Assembly: GCA_003141455.1 (NCBI GenBank)
Contig: PLMA01000042.1
Span: 1 to 64,000, forward strand
Direction: 5' to 3'
Origin: Chloroflexota bacterium
GTDB lineage: Bacteria; Chloroflexota; Limnocylindria; Limnocylindrales; CSP1-4
DNA: 64,000 nt
Within the stretch, counting starts at the first letter, position 1, and each line of letters opens with the position of its first letter. Below the pieces are notes generated by a model, which saw only the letters and a list, made by a program, of their open reading frames with translations, ran no database searches and was not told where the DNA came from. Of this stretch, positions 42,935-50,865 are shown one piece after another. A program made the position numbers and the translations under genes.

Positions 42935-42940
42935 TTGACA
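42935..42940 (+). promoter_or_regulatory. Consensus -35 hexamer upstream of the lacI-family gene
   Basis: TTGACA at 42935-42940; a 17-bp spacer places the -10 region inside the CATGTAA operator cluster, with no good -10 match. Confidence 0.4.
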
Positions 42941-42953
42941 ACGCTGGTATTCT

Positions 42954-42985
42954 CATGTAAGCGGTTCCATGTAACCGGTTACATG
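42954..42985. promoter_or_regulatory. Overlapping pair of LacI-family operators (one perfect 18-bp palindrome, one imperfect)
   Basis: CATGTAACCGGTTACATG (42968-42985) is a perfect palindrome with LacI-type central CG; CATGTAAGCGGTTCCATG (42954-42971) is an imperfect copy sharing CATG. Confidence 0.8.
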
Positions 42986-42996
42986 AGGCTTCCCCG

Positions 42997-44034
42997 ATGG
43001 CCAAGACCGTCACGATCCGCGATGTCGCCCGCCGCGCGGGTGTGAGCATCGCCACCGCCTCACGGGCGCTCAATGGCAGCGAGCAGATGACTGACGCTAC
43101 CCGTAAACGGGTCCTGCAGGTCATGGCCGAGCTGCAATTCACTCCAAGCATCTCAGCCCGGCGTCTCAGCCTGGGTCGGACGATGACGATCACCGTCGTT
43201 ACTTCCTTCCTGACTCGCCCGCAGGCGGTTGAGCGAATCCGCGGGGTGGACGCCGTGCTCAGCGACAGCGAGTTCGACCTCGTCATCTACAACGTTGAGA
43301 CCATCGAGAAGCGCGATCAGTACCTGAGAAGCCTTCCGCTGGCCCAACGGACCGACGGCGTGCTGCTCATCTCGTTGCCCCCGCGACCTGAAGACGTGGC
43401 GCGGCTCGCGTCCGCAGCAGTTCCGGTCGTGGTTGTCGATGTTCACTCCCCATCGCTTGACGTCCTCCCTCGAGTTGTGGGAGACGACGTCGCCGGCGGC
43501 CAGCTTGCCGTTCGGCACCTCGTCGAGCTGGGGCACCGCGAGATTGGATACATCGGCGACGAGTTCGACAACCCGTTCGGCTTCACGTCTAGTCGCGACC
43601 GATTCGCCGGGTATGAGCAAGCCCTCGCCATCGCCGGTCTCCCGCCTCGACCGGACTTGGTAGCTCTGGGCGCTCACAGCCGATACGAAGCCCGCGAGCT
43701 GGCGGTCCGCCTTCTGTCAGGACCGAAACCTCCAACGGCCATCTTCGCGGCCAGCGATACCCAGGCGCTCGGTGTCATCTCGGCCGCGCACGAAGTCGGG
43801 CTCGACGTTCCCGGAGATCTCTCGATAGTCGGCTACGACGACATCGAAGCCGCCGATTACGTAGGCCTGACCACAGTCCGCCAGTGTCTATTCGAGTCCG
43901 GGCGCCTCGGGGCGGAGTTGCTGCTCAAGGAGATAGACCAGCGCTCGGAGGTTCCCCCCCACACCGATTTGCCACCTGACCTTGTAATCCGCGCGACATC
44001 GGCGCCACCGAGGGAGGGCCTGCCTACGGGTTGA
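42997..44034 (+). CDS. LacI-family transcriptional regulator
   Basis: TIRDVARRAGVSIATASRALNGSEQMTDATRKRVLQVMAELQFTPSISARRLS (HTH), PTAIFAASDTQALGVISAAHEVGLDVPGDLSIVGYDDIEAADYVGLTTVRQ. Confidence 0.95.
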   Translation: MAKTVTIRDVARRAGVSIATASRALNGSEQMTDATRKRVLQVMAELQFTPSISARRLSLGRTMTITVVTSFLTRPQAVERIRGVDAVLSDSEFDLVIYNVETIEKRDQYLRSLPLAQRTDGVLLISLPPRPEDVARLASAAVPVVVVDVHSPSLDVLPRVVGDDVAGGQLAVRHLVELGHREIGYIGDEFDNPFGFTSSRDRFAGYEQALAIAGLPPRPDLVALGAHSRYEARELAVRLLSGPKPPTAIFAASDTQALGVISAAHEVGLDVPGDLSIVGYDDIEAADYVGLTTVRQCLFESGRLGAELLLKEIDQRSEVPPHTDLPPDLVIRATSAPPREGLPTG

Positions 44035-44084
44035 CGGACACGGCAAATCGTCTTGGATCCAACTGCCCAAGGAGGAGACGAACA

Positions 44085-45488
44085 GTGTTGCTAGCCTTTA
44101 GCCATTCCCGGAGGGTTCTGGGGGGACTCGCGATTGTGGCGCTCGTCGCCACCGCGTGCAGCGGGTCGGGCTCGACCCCGACCCCGCCACCGGCAACCCC
44201 AACCCCCGCACCCGCCACAACCGTAGCGACCCCCACGCCAGCAGCGTCACCCACGGCCGCTCCGATCACCTGCGGCACGGCCCCCGTCGTGCTCAATGCT
44301 TACTTCGAAACCGGATTTGACATCCCATTTAAGCTCTCCGATGAGTTCACCAAGCAATTCCCGACCGTAACCTGGAAGATCAGCCAGGACCAGTTCACCA
44401 ACCTGACGAACTCGACGCCGCGGCTGCTGGCCTCGGACACCCCGCCGGATCTCATCCGCCTTCCGACGATGATTTCGCTCGTGAAGGACGGGCTCCTCAT
44501 GAACCTGGATAAGTATGTGACAGCGTTTGGCTGGGACAAGTGGCCGGCCTCCGAGCTTCTCCAGGACCGGGTCGCTGCGGACGGCACCCGTGGCTCCGGC
44601 TCCCTGTACGCGGCCGGCTTGAACTACAGCATGACCGGCGTCTTCTACAACAAGAAGCTCGCCGCCCAGATCGGCATGACCACGCCTCCGACGACGGTGG
44701 ACGAATTCGAAGCCCTGCTGGCCAAGGCCAAGGCGGCCGGGCTCCAGCCGATCATGCAGTGGAACGCTTCCGCCAGCGGCGGCGGACTTGCATTCCCGCT
44801 CCAGAACCTCATGGCGGCTTACGGCCCGACCCAGCAGATCAACGACTGGATCTTCCAGAAGAAGGGCACCACCATCGACACCGCCACCAATCTGACGGCG
44901 GCACAGCACCTCGAGACGTGGGTCAAGAACGGGTACTTCCCCAAGGACGTCAACGCCATCGAGTACACGGCCTCGAACAGCCGCTTCACCAAGGGCGAAG
45001 GGGTCTTCACGTTCAACGGCGACTGGGAAAACGCGAGCATGGATAAGAACGCCCCAGGCAACGTCGGGTTCTTTGCGTTCCCCTCTGCCACAGCGGGCGG
45101 CTCACTCGCCGCCATGTCTTCCCCGCTCACGTACGGCATCGCCGCCAAGGCGAAGAATGCCGACTGTGCGGCCTTCTTCCTCAACTGGGTGGCGACCAAC
45201 ACGACCGCCCGCCAGATCAACGTGGCTATCGGCGGCTCCAACCCGGGCGGTCCTTCCGACCTTCCGGTTCCACCGGCTGCTGCCGGCTCCGTGACCAATG
45301 ACTCGCTTGCCGTCGGCGCCCTGGTCTCCAAGGCCAACGGCGGGATGGACTTCATCGCGAACGCGACCGGCTCCATCTTCGCCCAGGGCTGGACGCCCGA
45401 GCTCCAGAAGCTGGTCGGCGGCAAGGAAACCGCTGCCGGCATGCTCAAGGCCGTCCAGGCCGAGTACCTGAAGGAACTCTCCCAGTAA
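44085..45488 (+). CDS. Sugar ABC transporter solute-binding lipoprotein (family 1)
   Basis: Lipobox LVATACSGS with Pro/Thr linker; FEALLAKAKAAGLQPIMQW, FTFNGDWENASMDKNAPGNVGFFAFPSATAGGSLAAMSSPLTYGIAAKAKN. GTG start after AAGGAGGAG. Confidence 0.9.
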   Translation: MLLAFSHSRRVLGGLAIVALVATACSGSGSTPTPPPATPTPAPATTVATPTPAASPTAAPITCGTAPVVLNAYFETGFDIPFKLSDEFTKQFPTVTWKISQDQFTNLTNSTPRLLASDTPPDLIRLPTMISLVKDGLLMNLDKYVTAFGWDKWPASELLQDRVAADGTRGSGSLYAAGLNYSMTGVFYNKKLAAQIGMTTPPTTVDEFEALLAKAKAAGLQPIMQWNASASGGGLAFPLQNLMAAYGPTQQINDWIFQKKGTTIDTATNLTAAQHLETWVKNGYFPKDVNAIEYTASNSRFTKGEGVFTFNGDWENASMDKNAPGNVGFFAFPSATAGGSLAAMSSPLTYGIAAKAKNADCAAFFLNWVATNTTARQINVAIGGSNPGGPSDLPVPPAAAGSVTNDSLAVGALVSKANGGMDFIANATGSIFAQGWTPELQKLVGGKETAAGMLKAVQAEYLKELSQ

Positions 45489-46459
45489 TGAACGCCGCTG
45501 ACGGCTCGATGCCTGAGACCATGATCGATCGACCGGATCCTCAGACCGACCGTCAGCGGCAGTCCCGGCGGGCCCTCCCAAGTCGGAAGGCCCGCCGGGA
45601 ACACCTGCTCGGCTGGCTGTTCGTGCTACCTGCACTCGCGGTATACGCCGTTTTCGTCCTGCTTCCGCTCGCCCTGACGGTGTGGTACTCGCTATTCCGG
45701 TGGGATGGCTTCAACGTCCCCGTGTGGGTCGGTCTGGCCAACTACGAGAACGTGCTCACCGATCCGGACCTGCTCAACACGATCTTCAATGCCTTCCGGC
45801 TCATCTTCTTCTTTAGCTTCATCCCGGTCACTCTCGGGCTCGTAGTAGCCTCCGTAATCCGCCGGAGCGCCACCGGCTCGCTGGGCAACGTCGCCCGGAC
45901 GGTCCTGTTCCTGCCGCAAGTCATCCCGCTCGTAGCGGCCGGCATTGTGTGGAGCGTGGTGCTCTCGCTTTCGGGGATCCTCAACCAGTCTCTGACCGCC
46001 ATTGGGCTCGAGGGCGTCACTCGGGCATGGCTGGGCGATTTCGATACGGCTCTGGCCGCGGTCGGCTTGATCGGTACCTGGGTGCTGCTCGGACTCTGCA
46101 CGGTCCTGCTTCTGACAGGCATGACGAAGATCGATCCCGCGCTGTACGAGGCCGCGAGGATCGACGGCGCCGGGGCCATCCAGGAGTTCCGGGCGATCAC
46201 TGTCCCGGGCCTCCGGCAGGAGATCGGTGTGTGCGTCACCGTCACGGTCATCGCAGCGCTGAGGAGCTTCGACATCGTCTACGTCACCACGGGCGGCGGA
46301 CCGGGGCTGGCGACGATGGTCCCGGGACTCGACATCTATGTGCTTGCTTTCCAGGCACGCGCCGTGGGCGTCGCGTCGGCGCTCGCCGTGGTGCTGATCA
46401 TCCTCATCCTGGTCCTCATCCTTCCGATCCAGTACCTGAGCCGGGAGAAAGGCGCATGA
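45488..46459 (+). CDS. Sugar ABC transporter permease (MalF-like)
   Basis: LFVLPALAVYAVFVLLPLALTVWYSLFRWDGF, WVGLANYENVLTDP, ALYEAARIDGAGAIQEFRAITVPGLRQEI (EAA loop). Confidence 0.92.
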   Translation: MNAADGSMPETMIDRPDPQTDRQRQSRRALPSRKARREHLLGWLFVLPALAVYAVFVLLPLALTVWYSLFRWDGFNVPVWVGLANYENVLTDPDLLNTIFNAFRLIFFFSFIPVTLGLVVASVIRRSATGSLGNVARTVLFLPQVIPLVAAGIVWSVVLSLSGILNQSLTAIGLEGVTRAWLGDFDTALAAVGLIGTWVLLGLCTVLLLTGMTKIDPALYEAARIDGAGAIQEFRAITVPGLRQEIGVCVTVTVIAALRSFDIVYVTTGGGPGLATMVPGLDIYVLAFQARAVGVASALAVVLIILILVLILPIQYLSREKGA

Positions 46460-47280
46460 GGGTCGACCGCCGCGAACTCTACAGCGGCAGGCTTCTGCTG
46501 ATCGTGCTTATGGCCGTCACTATCGTGCCGTTCGTCAGCATGTTCACGACCGCGCTCCACCCCTCCGGGTCCGTCCCTCAGGGGCTCTCCTGGCCTTCAG
46601 ATCCTCAGTGGGGCAACTTCATCACCGCGTTCAACACGGCGAACATGACCACGCTCATGTCCTCGAGCGTCTTCATCGTGCTGCTGACGGTGCCTATCTC
46701 ACTCGTGATCTCGACTATGGCCGGGTTCGCCATCGGGCTGCTGCGTATTCCAGGTGCTTCCTGGCTGCTCCTTCTCTTCGTCTTCGGGCTGACCCTGCCG
46801 TACGAGGGAATCGTGACGCCGCTCTACTACCTCGAGCGTCAGATGGGGATCCTGAACGGCCGCCTGGCGATCGCGCTGCCGCTGACCGCCCTGTATATGC
46901 CCTTCGCGGTGTACTGGATGCGAGCGCACTTCATCACCATGCCGCCCGAGATCAGCGAGGCGGCCCGGGTCGACGGGGCCGGAACGTGGGATCTCTTCTG
47001 GAAGATCCATGTCCCGCTGGCTCGGCCCCCGATCGTGTCGCTCGGGATCCTCATGACGGTCTGGACGTGGAACCAGTTCGTTCTCGCCCTGGTCCTCGTG
47101 GAGGACCCGAACCAGCGGACTGCGGCCGGCATCCTGGCGGCCTTCCAGGGCCACTACGCGACCGACATCCCCTTGCTATGCGCGGGCTCGCTGCTGATCC
47201 TCCTGCCCACCCTTATCGTCTTCGTCGCGTTCCAGCGCCAGGTCATCGCCGCGCTCCTACAGGGATCGGTCAAAGGATGA
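46456..47280 (+). CDS. Sugar ABC transporter permease (MalG-like)
   Basis: FVFGLTLPYEGIVTPLYYLERQMGILNGRLAIALPLTALYMPFAVYWMRAHFITMPPEISEAARVDGAGTWDLFWKIHVPLARP; ATGA overlap with the upstream gene. Confidence 0.92.
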   Translation: MRVDRRELYSGRLLLIVLMAVTIVPFVSMFTTALHPSGSVPQGLSWPSDPQWGNFITAFNTANMTTLMSSSVFIVLLTVPISLVISTMAGFAIGLLRIPGASWLLLLFVFGLTLPYEGIVTPLYYLERQMGILNGRLAIALPLTALYMPFAVYWMRAHFITMPPEISEAARVDGAGTWDLFWKIHVPLARPPIVSLGILMTVWTWNQFVLALVLVEDPNQRTAAGILAAFQGHYATDIPLLCAGSLLILLPTLIVFVAFQRQVIAALLQGSVKG

Positions 47281-47314
47281 GGAGCGCTCTCGTCGACCCC
47301 AAGGGAGCCATGCA

Positions 47315-48520
47315 GTGACAAGCCCCACCGATCGGGTGGTAGAACCTATGCCGGTGCGCGGCGAGGTCGACGATGGGTTCGGCCCCGTGATGGACGTCTT
47401 CGCCCGGAACTTCCGCGAGCGCGGTGATCTCGGCGCAGCCTGCTCCGTATACGTCGCCGGCCAGAACAGAGTGGACGTCTGGGGCGGGATCGCCGACCGG
47501 CGGACGGGGCGGCCTTGGACCGCGGATACGTCGGCTGTCGTCTTCTCGTGCAGCAAGGGCATCCTGGCCATCTGCGCGTACCTGCTGGTCCAGGAGGGTC
47601 GCCTCGATCTCGACGCGCCCGTCGCACGATACTGGCCCGAGTTCGGGCAGGCAGACAAGGAAAGCATTCCGGTCCGCTGGCTGCTCAGCCACCGCGCGGG
47701 TCTGCCGGCGCTCGATGGGGACCTGACGCGCCCCGATGTTCTCGCCTGGGACCCGGTTATACGGGCCATCGAGGTCCAGGCTCCCCGCTGGACTCCGGGA
47801 ACGGCGCACTCCTACCACTCGCTCACGTATGGTTGGCTCATCGGCGAGGTGATCCGCCGGATAACCGGCACCCTGCCCGGCGTCTTCTTCCGCGAGAAGC
47901 TCGGCGATCCATTGCGGCTGCACACCTGGATCGGCCTCCCCGCTTCGGAGCGCGAATCTGTCGCCTGGATGGAGCCGCCGCTCCCTGATGAAGACACCCC
48001 GGCTGTCCGGGCGATTGCGGAGCACCTTGCCGATCCCGTGGTAGTGCGGAGTCTCACGATGGGCGGCGCTTTTGGGTTCCCGATGGAGGGAGGTGTCGTC
48101 GCATTCAACGACCGCGAGCTCCAGGCAGGACAGATCCCGGCTGCCAATGGCATCAGCACCGCGCGTTCGCTCGCCCGCCTTTATGCTGGTTGCGTCTCGG
48201 AGATAGGCGGCCCAAGGATTCTGAGTCGCTCGTCGGTCGACGATGCCATCCGCGTCCAATCGTACGGCCGGCAGTTGTTCGGGCCGCCCGACATGGGTCA
48301 GCGTTGGGGCACAGGATTCTTGCTCAACTCGCCGCCAGCCCGGCCGATGCTGTGTGACCGCAGCTTCGGCCACGACGGCGCGGGCGGCCAGCTGGGGTTC
48401 GCCGACGACGAACACGGCGTAGGCTTCGCCTACCTAAGCAACCAGATGGGTGGGATCGCCGACCAGCGGGCCAACCTACTAACCGCCGCGGTCAGATCAT
48501 GCCTCCGCGACGAGCTGTGA
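47315..48520 (+). CDS. Serine hydrolase, class C beta-lactamase/EstB-like family
   Basis: SxxK motif VVFSCSKGILAICAYLLVQEGRLDLDAPVARYWPEF, YHSLTYGWLIGEVIRRITG, FGHDGAGGQLGFADDEHGVGFAYLSNQM. Confidence 0.88.
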   Translation: MTSPTDRVVEPMPVRGEVDDGFGPVMDVFARNFRERGDLGAACSVYVAGQNRVDVWGGIADRRTGRPWTADTSAVVFSCSKGILAICAYLLVQEGRLDLDAPVARYWPEFGQADKESIPVRWLLSHRAGLPALDGDLTRPDVLAWDPVIRAIEVQAPRWTPGTAHSYHSLTYGWLIGEVIRRITGTLPGVFFREKLGDPLRLHTWIGLPASERESVAWMEPPLPDEDTPAVRAIAEHLADPVVVRSLTMGGAFGFPMEGGVVAFNDRELQAGQIPAANGISTARSLARLYAGCVSEIGGPRILSRSSVDDAIRVQSYGRQLFGPPDMGQRWGTGFLLNSPPARPMLCDRSFGHDGAGGQLGFADDEHGVGFAYLSNQMGGIADQRANLLTAAVRSCLRDEL

Positions 48521-48631
48521 CCGAGGGACACCACACGGGGAGAAGCGCACTGCGACGGTCGACCCGGCCCAGCTCGCGATGCGGCGACCGGAGCACTGGT
48601 CGGCACCGAGGTTCAATCTTGTGGAGGAATT

Positions 48632-49285
48632 GTGAAGGGTGACGTCATCGTCATCGAGAAGCACCACCACCGGGCTGCGGCGGTGATCGTGGCGGCGATG
48701 GAGGCGAAGGCGAACGCAAAGCCGGGTCGCTTTCTTGTCACCGTCGCCGGCGAGTCCGGCTCGGGCAAGTCCGAAACCGCGGCGGCCCTGGCCGAGCGGC
48801 TCCTCGAAGTGGGGCTACGCTCAGCGATCCTTGGTCAGGACGACTACTTCGTCCTTCCGCCCAAGGACAACGACACGAGGCGCCGCCAGGATCCGGACTG
48901 GCTCGGTCCCGATGTAGAGGTGCGATTCGACCTGCTGCAGGCAAACGTGAACGTAGCTCTGGAGGGCGCAGCTTCGATCGACAAGCCCGTCATCGACTAC
49001 GCCGCCAACTCGATGTCGACCGAGTGCCTGAGTCTGGCGAGCGTCAAGGTTGTGATCGTCGAGGGGACCTACGTGTCTCTGTTGCGGCACGTTGACCTGA
49101 GGGTCTTCATCGCTCGAGATCGGCTCGAGACCATGGAGCATCGCAGAAGGCGCAACCGGGGCGGCGAGGCCCGTGACCCCTTCATCGAGGAAGTGCTGTG
49201 CATCGAGCACAAGATAATCGCGGGGCACCAGCACCTGGCGGACATCATCGTGACCCGAGACTACGACGTGATCGAGGCGGGCTGA
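48632..49285 (+). CDS. P-loop kinase, uridine kinase-like fold, substrate unknown
   Basis: Walker A VAGESGSGKSETAAAL, LGQDDYFVLPPKDNDTRRRQDPDWLGPDVEVRFDLL, KVVIVEGTYVSLL, ERRRRNRGGEA-like lid (EHRRRRNRGGEARDPF). Confidence 0.75.
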   Translation: MKGDVIVIEKHHHRAAAVIVAAMEAKANAKPGRFLVTVAGESGSGKSETAAALAERLLEVGLRSAILGQDDYFVLPPKDNDTRRRQDPDWLGPDVEVRFDLLQANVNVALEGAASIDKPVIDYAANSMSTECLSLASVKVVIVEGTYVSLLRHVDLRVFIARDRLETMEHRRRRNRGGEARDPFIEEVLCIEHKIIAGHQHLADIIVTRDYDVIEAG

Positions 49286-49299
49286 GGCGGCTAGAGGCG

Positions 49300-50769
49300 A
49301 TGCCTGTCAAGAACAAGGTCCAGCTGATCACCTACCCAGATTCGCTCGGCGGCACGCTCAAGAGCCTCGATCAGGCGCTGGCGAGCTGTTTCCCCGGCCT
49401 CTTCGAGGGCGGGATCCATATCCTCCCGCCGTTCCCGTCCTCAGGGGACCGGGGCTTCGCCCCGTTGACTTACCTGGAGATCGACCCCGCCTTCGGCTCC
49501 TGGGATGACATTCGCAGATTGGGTGCCCAGTACGACATCTTGCTGGATCTCATGATCAACCATGTTTCCGCGAGATCCCCCTTCTTCGCGGACTTCCTGG
49601 CGAAGGGCAGGGCGTCCGAGTGGGCCGACCTTTTCATTACCCTCGACAAGCTCTGGGAGGACGGCAATCCAGTCCAGCGGGACATCGACAAGATGTTTCT
49701 CAGACGGCCGCGGCCGTACTCGACGTATAGGGTGGGCTCGCCCGCCGTCGATGAGAAGGTCTGGACGACCTTCGGCAAACAGGACCCTTCCGAGCAGGTC
49801 GATCTCGACTGGAGGGCGCCCCAATTCCGGCGCCTCATCGTGGACTTCCTTGAGAGCTTCGCACGCCATGGCGTGCAGATCGTCAGGCTCGACGCGGTCG
49901 GTTACCTGGTCAAGAAACCCGGCACGAGCTGTTTCTTCGTCGAGCCGGAGATTCTTGAATTCATGCGCTGGATCGATGGAATGGCCGCACCAATGGGCAT
50001 CACGCTCCTGCCGGAGGTTCATGCGCGGCGGGCCGTTCAGGACCGCCTGTCACAGCAGGGCTACTGGACCTATGACTTCATCCTGCCGTACGCGATCCTC
50101 GAAGCCCTGGTCATCCGGTCTCCGCTACGGCTACGGCCATATCTCCTGTCACGGTCGGCCAGGCAGTTCACCATGCTCGACTGCCATGACGGGATCCCCG
50201 TGAAGCCCGACATGGATGGGTTGTACGCGCCCGAGGATGTTCGGCGCCTGGTGCGGACCTGCTTGGATCGGGGAGGGAACCTGAGCCTCGTTGTCTCACC
50301 AGAACATAAGGACCCCGATGGCTTCGACGTCCACCAGATCAGGGGCACTTACTACTCGCTTCTCGGTTGCGACGACGACGCCTACATCGCCGCCCGCGCC
50401 ATTCAGTTCTTTGTCCCCGGCGTGCCCCAGGTCTACTACGTGGGGCTTCTGGCAGGTCAGAACGACGAAGAGGCGGTCAGCCGCAGCGGCGATGGCAGGG
50501 AGATCAATCGTCACAACTTCAGCATGGAAGAGATCAGCGCCGCGGCCAACAAGGACGTTGTCCGGCGCCTCGACCGCCTTATCCGCCTGCGAAACAGGCA
50601 CCCCGCTTTTGACGGTGAGTTCCGAGTCCTCGACTCGGACGACAGCAGGCTGCGCCTGGCCTGGTCGAAGGGCGGGGAGGATTGCGTACTGGACGTCGAC
50701 TTCGTCTCGATGCATTCCGGCGTGGAGTGCGTCGACGCCCACGGTCACGTCGAGCACGTCATTCTCTAG
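49300..50769 (+). CDS. GH13_18 sucrose phosphorylase-family glycoside phosphorylase
   Basis: KNKVQLITYPDSLGGTLKSL, GGIHILPPFPSSGDRGFAPLTYLEIDPAFGSWDDI, RLDAVGYLVKKPGTSCFF (nucleophile), LPEVHARR (acid/base), DCHDGIPV, VPGVPQVYYVGLLAGQND. Confidence 0.88.
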   Translation: MPVKNKVQLITYPDSLGGTLKSLDQALASCFPGLFEGGIHILPPFPSSGDRGFAPLTYLEIDPAFGSWDDIRRLGAQYDILLDLMINHVSARSPFFADFLAKGRASEWADLFITLDKLWEDGNPVQRDIDKMFLRRPRPYSTYRVGSPAVDEKVWTTFGKQDPSEQVDLDWRAPQFRRLIVDFLESFARHGVQIVRLDAVGYLVKKPGTSCFFVEPEILEFMRWIDGMAAPMGITLLPEVHARRAVQDRLSQQGYWTYDFILPYAILEALVIRSPLRLRPYLLSRSARQFTMLDCHDGIPVKPDMDGLYAPEDVRRLVRTCLDRGGNLSLVVSPEHKDPDGFDVHQIRGTYYSLLGCDDDAYIAARAIQFFVPGVPQVYYVGLLAGQNDEEAVSRSGDGREINRHNFSMEEISAAANKDVVRRLDRLIRLRNRHPAFDGEFRVLDSDDSRLRLAWSKGGEDCVLDVDFVSMHSGVECVDAHGHVEHVIL

Positions 50770-50788: not shown

Positions 50789-50865
50789 TGGTGGGCGATA
50801 CTGGACTCGAACCAGTGACCTCGCGGATGTGAACCGCGCGCTCTAACCAGCTGAGCTAATCGCCC
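50789..50865 (-). tRNA. tRNA-Val (anticodon CAC), CCA encoded
   Basis: Minus strand GGGCGATTAGCTCAGCTGGTTAGAGCGCGCGGTTCACATCCGCGAGGTCACTGGTTCGAGTCCAGTATCGCCCACCA folds as a cloverleaf; 7-nt anticodon loop TTCACAT. Confidence 0.95.

Follow-up and report, generated by a model that had tools for sequence, protein, structure and literature searches.

A predicted LacI-controlled, PTS-independent sucrose operon in a Chloroflexota bacterium

Which sugar is served by a gene cluster that joins an ABC importer, a serine hydrolase, a P-loop kinase and a GH13_18 phosphorylase, and in what order would its enzymes act? The question arises from a 64,000-nucleotide stretch of a Chloroflexota genome (hereafter the window), in which a first-pass annotation had described seven co-directional genes as one operon for a glucoside whose identity it left open. 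All seven were recovered as closely packed open reading frames on the same strand (42997-50769). Profile searches with Pfam and NCBIfam confirmed their families, and the idea of a single operon in which a glucoside is cleaved by GH13_18 phosphorolysis is supported. We propose that the locus is probably a LacI-controlled, PTS-independent sucrose operon, whose products would import the sugar, phosphorylate it with ATP and split it by phosphorolysis into glucose 1-phosphate and fructose 6-phosphate.

Gene layout, regulation and import

The first gene encodes a LacI-family regulator (42997..44034, + strand, like all that follow; assigned by Pfam and NCBIfam) and is directly preceded by two tandem LacI-type operators (42954..42985, no strand), predicted as CATGTAAGCGGTTCCATG at 42954-42971 and as the perfect palindrome CATGTAACCGGTTACATG at 42968-42985, together with a TTGACA-like -35 box at 42935-42940. 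The operator pattern was matched four times in the window, with both strands counted, against 0.04 expected, and no exact match was found elsewhere in the genome, leaving the sites upstream of lacI as the sole ones. Because the tandem operators stand before lacI and the exact pattern is confined to that spot, the operon looks locally self-regulated through LacI. A near-copy, ATGTAACCGGTTTCAT, lies at the equivalent place before the lacI gene of G195, a genome from another genus of the same family. At the other end, a tRNA-Val lies directly 3' of the operon, where a search for a terminator-like site found none.

The regulator is followed by a CUT1-type sugar ABC importer, comprising a substrate-binding lipoprotein (SBP, 44031..45488) and two permeases, A (45488..46459) and B (46453..47280), both identified by BPD_transp_1. 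The SBP has no Pfam match and was assigned from weak NCBIfam matches to sugar-binding proteins; its orthologues in G248, Pelolinea, G195 and fen_1053 share 64-76% identity with it. The remaining part of the importer, a MalK-type (OB_MalK) ATPase, is encoded on contig C42 of the same genome, in line with the earlier expectation of a shared ATPase elsewhere; a genome search for a second MalK-type ATPase found none, and we infer that the one on contig C42 powers the importer of the operon.

Three enzymes complete the operon: a serine hydrolase with the family VIII esterase / class C beta-lactamase fold (47315..48520; Beta-lactamase, PF00144), a putative sucrose kinase with the PRK/uridine-kinase fold (48632..49285; PF00485 and homology), and a GH13_18 phosphorylase (49300..50769; TIGR03852 and structural match). 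The start of the last was set at the ATG at 49300, where its homologues begin, rather than at 49198 as the longest open reading frame would give. These genes did not come together by accident: the order SBP-PermA-PermB-(hydrolase)-kinase-GH13_18 recurs in other Chloroflexota lineages at 52-81% identity.

The phosphorylase and its kinase partner

The GH13_18 enzyme scores 437 bits against the TIGR03852 sucrose phosphorylase model (NCBIfam cut-off 334). Although this passes the cut-off for the generic name gtfA, the model ignores the acceptor-site loop, and a plain sucrose phosphorylase was rejected on that ground: loop A reads GFDVHQ (residues 341-346), the motif that marks sucrose 6F-phosphate phosphorylases (SPPs) of the TtSPP type, and the N(L/V)D(I/L/V)YQ of sucrose phosphorylases is absent (PMC7178133). 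Its best match among solved structures is TtSPP itself, from Thermoanaerobacterium thermosaccharolyticum (PDB 6S9V, EC 2.4.1.329), at 643 bits, with the next enzyme at 410; the Ilumatobacter coccineus enzyme IcSPP (PDB 6S9U), which catalyses the same reaction but carries a KxxYYQ loop, reaches only 239 bits. In the alignment, the 12 TtSPP residues checked, which carry out catalysis, hold the glucosyl unit at subsite -1 or bind fructose 6-phosphate, are all identical in the window enzyme (12 of 12), including the catalytic Asp197, Glu238 and Asp296 and the fructose 6-phosphate site formed by Arg134, Tyr201, His344, Gln345 and Arg399 (PMC6720575). The other acceptors considered at the outset, glycerate and glycerol, are not favoured: glucosylglycerate phosphorylases carry a Glu at the loop A position where the window enzyme has Gln346, and the VGA motif of glucosylglycerol phosphorylases is missing (PMC6720575). 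The substrate, which the first-pass annotation had left unassigned, is thus likely sucrose 6F-phosphate, with glucose 1-phosphate and fructose 6-phosphate as products, an assignment that denotes preference and not proof because TtSPP also has a side activity on sucrose (PMC7178133).

The kinase has a Walker A motif (GESGSGKS, at residue 40), is distantly similar in sequence to uridine kinase, and is predicted to adopt the fold of the pantothenate kinase / uridine kinase / phosphoribulokinase group (pLDDT 92). To compare it with AgaSK, in which a sucrose kinase is joined to a GH36 domain, we located orthologues of AgaSK through a search for RgSPP-type enzymes within the relevant family. One of these orthologues has a GH36 part that matches AgaSK (PDB 2yfn) over 717 of 720 residues, and its kinase domain is 32% identical to the window kinase over 199 amino acids (E 8e-21). 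A profile-profile comparison of the two kinase groups (hhalign) gave E 4e-33 over 216 columns and took in an N-terminal MxGDxxxI...H, present in some members, that lies outside the uridine-kinase match. The homology to RgSK, which phosphorylates sucrose (PMC7688924), thus extends over the full length and past the P-loop, and the window protein is most likely a sucrose kinase of the RgSK/AgaSK family. It is very improbable that it is instead the cell's uridine kinase and adjoins the phosphorylase by chance. Such a role would fit the fold and the failure to find any other PF00485 protein in the genome, which is 92% complete; yet the kinase scores 47.4 bits against the udk equivalog model (NCBIfam cut-off 220), is missing from most relatives, genomes of the same genus among them, and is separated by a long branch from the udk-like proteins of our sample, and its pairing with SPPs is conserved in eight phyla.

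This pairing emerged from a neighbourhood comparison of the kind that the first-pass annotation had itself suggested, and the arrangement proved conserved. Relatives of the kinase occur in Chloroflexota, Actinomycetota, Spirochaetota, Bacteroidota, Ignavibacteriota, Chlorobiota, KSB1 and Bacillota, and in about 47 genomes from these eight phyla the gene immediately precedes an SPP-type GH13_18 or is fused with it, a count that is biased since many of the loci were found through the kinase itself. Both kinds of SPP acceptor site are represented, GFDxHQ (18 genomes, one with GFNVHQ) and KxxYYQ. In the fairer sample, chosen by the SPP and not by the kinase, 22 of 22 genomes had the kinase. By contrast, it lay beside none of eight NLDxYQ sucrose phosphorylases and beside none of three YE-type enzymes (pooled phosphorylase-led searches, Fisher p ~6e-7, a descriptive value because related genomes, and the window too, are in the count). 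Operons of sucrose phosphorylases (EC 2.4.1.7) share with the window an ABC importer, a LacI regulator and a GH13_18 gene, but differ in their loop and in the absence of an RgSK/AgaSK-family kinase from all eight loci. In four gut genomes (G1305, G1304, G1237 and G1277, the last with its open reading frame cut by a contig end) kinase and SPP form a single open reading frame.

There are exceptions. Two loci, L011 and L074, have the kinase nearby but out of line with the SPP, and related kinases of Acidimicrobiia and Myxococcota have other partners (that of the Acidimicrobiia, of about 700 amino acids, gave a poor predicted model, pLDDT 59). Two Thermoanaerobacterium-like loci with a TtSPP-type gene differ from the window in carrying two PfkB-type kinases in the kinase's place, together with a GH32. 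The literature traces the substrate of SPPs either to a PTS or to a 'currently unknown' source (PMC7178133), and for TtSPP the PTS encoded beside it has been invoked as supplier. In one of these two loci the neighbouring PTS is a mannitol PTS (mtlA, mtlD), and the gene order of the other is the same, so that a PTS supply of sucrose 6F-phosphate near TtSPP was rejected for both. Beside the kinase-SPP pairs examined we recognised no PTS at all; the adjoining transporters vary, and are of the CUT1 ABC, AglE-type ABC, TonB plus SSS or TonB plus MFS kinds.

The G195 operon offers a natural comparison. It retains the LacI regulator, the SBP, both permeases, the hydrolase (64%) and the GH13_18 (51%), but no kinase was found in the operon or anywhere else in the genome, and loop A of its phosphorylase reads AVDIHQ, two residues shorter than the GFDVHQ form. 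Kinase and SPP loop are missing together, although this is suggestive only, as the loop keeps the phosphate-binding His and the change is not a clean switch.

Order of the steps and the published kinase product

Sucrose phosphorylases release fructose, and would thus need a fructokinase. An SPP releases fructose 6-phosphate, so that no kinase is needed for the freed acceptor. Since the kinase goes with SPPs but lay beside no sucrose phosphorylase in our sample, and since RgSK takes sucrose, we place it before the phosphorylase, where it most likely makes the substrate of the SPP. Under the proposed route, the SBP and the two permeases, driven by the MalK-type ATPase, would bring in sucrose, either plain or acylated; any acyl groups would be stripped by the serine hydrolase, which is the weakest step; the kinase would spend ATP to put a phosphate on the fructosyl C6 of sucrose; and the GH13_18 enzyme would use inorganic phosphate to split sucrose 6F-phosphate into glucose 1-phosphate and fructose 6-phosphate, which would enter glycolysis. 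The sequences themselves show the order of the genes, an active site of the SPP type, the homology of the kinase to a tested sucrose kinase, and the linkage and fusion of kinase and SPP, whereas the order of the steps, the 6F position, the substrate transported and the part played by the hydrolase are inferred.

The first-pass annotation had favoured the reverse order, with GH13_18 first cleaving a glucoside that bears no phosphate and leaving the freed fructose, glycerol or glycerate to the kinase. Adjacency of the two genes would fit that sequence of events, TtSPP can act on sucrose to some extent, and glycerate kinases are indeed encoded beside glucosylglycerate phosphorylases (PMC7178133). 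We nevertheless consider it improbable, given that the acceptor-site residues of an SPP are conserved in the window enzyme, that a family member, RgSK, acts on sucrose itself, and that the presence of the kinase beside SPPs and its absence from all eight sucrose phosphorylase loci is the reverse of the pattern expected for a fructokinase. For the same reasons, fructokinase and glycerate kinase were both rejected as functions of the kinase.

A difficulty comes from the Rgaga1 locus of Ruminococcus gnavus (AgaSK and RgSPP), which has in common with the window an ABC importer, a homologous sucrose kinase and an SPP downstream. The window differs in having no GH36, in carrying its kinase as a separate gene and in having an SPP of the GFDVHQ type, unlike RgSPP; the kinases are only ~30% identical, a distance at which both the position phosphorylated and the substrate could differ. 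According to PMC7688924, which cites Bruel 2011, the AgaSK kinase places its phosphate on C6 of the glucose of sucrose. RgSPP, however, selectively takes the 6-fructose phosphate, and Tauzin et al. for that reason keep kinase and SPP apart in their model (PMC6521584). The published Rgaga1 model thus leaves uncoupled two enzymes that our reading of the window couples. In the 2020 paper the kinase product was identified by mass spectrometry (PMC7688924), which by itself does not fix the position of a phosphate.

Taken at face value, these reports (PMC6521584, PMC7688924) would describe parallel branches, in which the kinase makes sucrose 6-glucose-phosphate and the phosphorylase draws on another pool, either imported sucrose 6F-phosphate or sucrose. 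We regard this arrangement as unlikely: kinase and SPP are fused in four genomes, the kinase is almost constantly adjacent to two different SPP types, and the window operon has no GH32 sucrose-6-phosphate hydrolase that could use the other isomer. On the basis of the fusions and the linkage we argue instead that either one of the published product or substrate assignments is in error or both isomers are made by the kinase.

The hydrolase and the case for acylated sucrose

The hydrolase has an S78-x-x-K81 motif, Y167 and H353-x-G, which we take to be the elements of family VIII esterases, and no obvious signal peptide. Its best NCBIfam match is the LipL esterase (205 bits, below the 650-bit cut-off of that model), and a class C beta-lactamase was rejected at 38 bits against the 415-bit cut-off of bla_class_C. 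From these features, the protein is presumed to be a cytosolic deacylase.

Whether it belongs to the pathway is finely balanced. A 64% identical orthologue occupies the equivalent place in the G195 operon, and esterases that are not homologous to it recur in other kinase-SPP operons: AXE1 in G248 (in the slot of the hydrolase) and in Pelolinea (downstream of the SPP), and an esterase together with a GDSL protein in two Clostridia (L024 and L136). This recurrence suggests an acyl-sucrose and lends some support to the 'perhaps acylated' substrate of the first-pass annotation; we would put an acyl-sucrose as the substrate of such operons at about an even chance. On the other hand, the hydrolase is absent from fen_1053 (L145), the closest full operon, which has the same importer. 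That it is an unrelated passenger and that the importer carries plain sucrose falls just short of an even chance, and would be compatible with the rest of the explanation preferred here, in which a sucrose kinase feeds an SPP. Accessory glycosidases also occur, with a GH32 in the RBG_16_72_14 operon and a GH1 in two Anaerolineales-type loci (named from sequence only).

The individual parts of this system were already known; what is new is that the predicted route stands alone and needs no PTS, that it is so broadly distributed, that kinase and SPP can be fused, and that all this conflicts with the product reported for the kinase. Tentatively, and with rather more doubt than belief, the account may be extended further: a widespread PTS-free route in which a sucrose 6F-kinase feeds an SPP, sometimes within one bifunctional protein; an AgaSK product that has been assigned as the wrong isomer; and several operons, that of the window included, dedicated to acylated sucrose with a swappable esterase. 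The proposed pathway would provide a PTS-free source of sucrose 6F-phosphate for a class of enzymes whose supply has been attributed to a PTS or left 'currently unknown' (PMC7178133), and it would turn the contradiction of a 6-glucose kinase beside a 6-fructose-strict phosphorylase into a short question for NMR or a coupled assay. The natural kinase-phosphorylase fusions may be of use in biocatalysis, and the recurring esterases hint at a bacterial route for acyl-sucrose.

Downstream edge of the operon

The operon, with a G+C content (0.64-0.66) slightly lower than that of its surroundings, is immediately followed by a gene for tRNA-Val (cac; window 50789-50865, minus strand). The same-genus genome G398 also carries the pair of sucrose kinase and sucrose 6F-phosphate phosphorylase (SPP), in a different context. 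It is possible that the operon constitutes an island at a tRNA.

Partners of the kinase in other genomes

In Acidimicrobiia and one spirochaete, a conserved protein of ~700 amino acids (L150:4333-6468, L151:3859-5991, L152:4554-6653, L153:4564-6642, L154:4094-6244, L157:1555-3822 on the minus strand, and L030:452-2485) is encoded directly downstream of related kinases (49-59%). This partner matched nothing in Pfam or NCBIfam, and its predicted structure was of too poor a quality for placement; its alpha-amylase-like signatures (GFDFMRGDMSH, FAETF and DKDDPRFD) suggest that it perhaps represents an undescribed glycosidase or phosphorylase family.

Further kinase copies adjoin a GT4 enzyme resembling sucrose-phosphate synthase (L035:6500-10654, from Pelolinea submarina, where GH32-like and GalT-like proteins are also present, and L101:1652-3609). 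Sucrose phosphate would possibly be run in reverse at these loci, generating UDP-glucose.

At two other loci, an additional, less closely related kinase from this superfamily (about 30%; L012:8276-8989 and L016:717-1352) is encoded in the vicinity of the sucrose kinase and SPP, accompanied by a ROK kinase and, in L012, by a GH65-HAD fusion. In two Clostridia kinase-SPP loci, the esterases are recurrently accompanied by NIF3/DUF34 proteins (L024:7511-8353; L136:4616-5440, minus strand).

The PTS beside TtSPP-type phosphorylases

According to the published view, a PTS supplies sucrose 6F-phosphate to the TtSPP-type phosphorylase. The PTS adjoining this enzyme (L098:12009-17257; L099) is specific for mannitol (mtlA, mtlD) rather than for sucrose, and the case for the proposed source of the enzyme's substrate is correspondingly weaker at these two loci.
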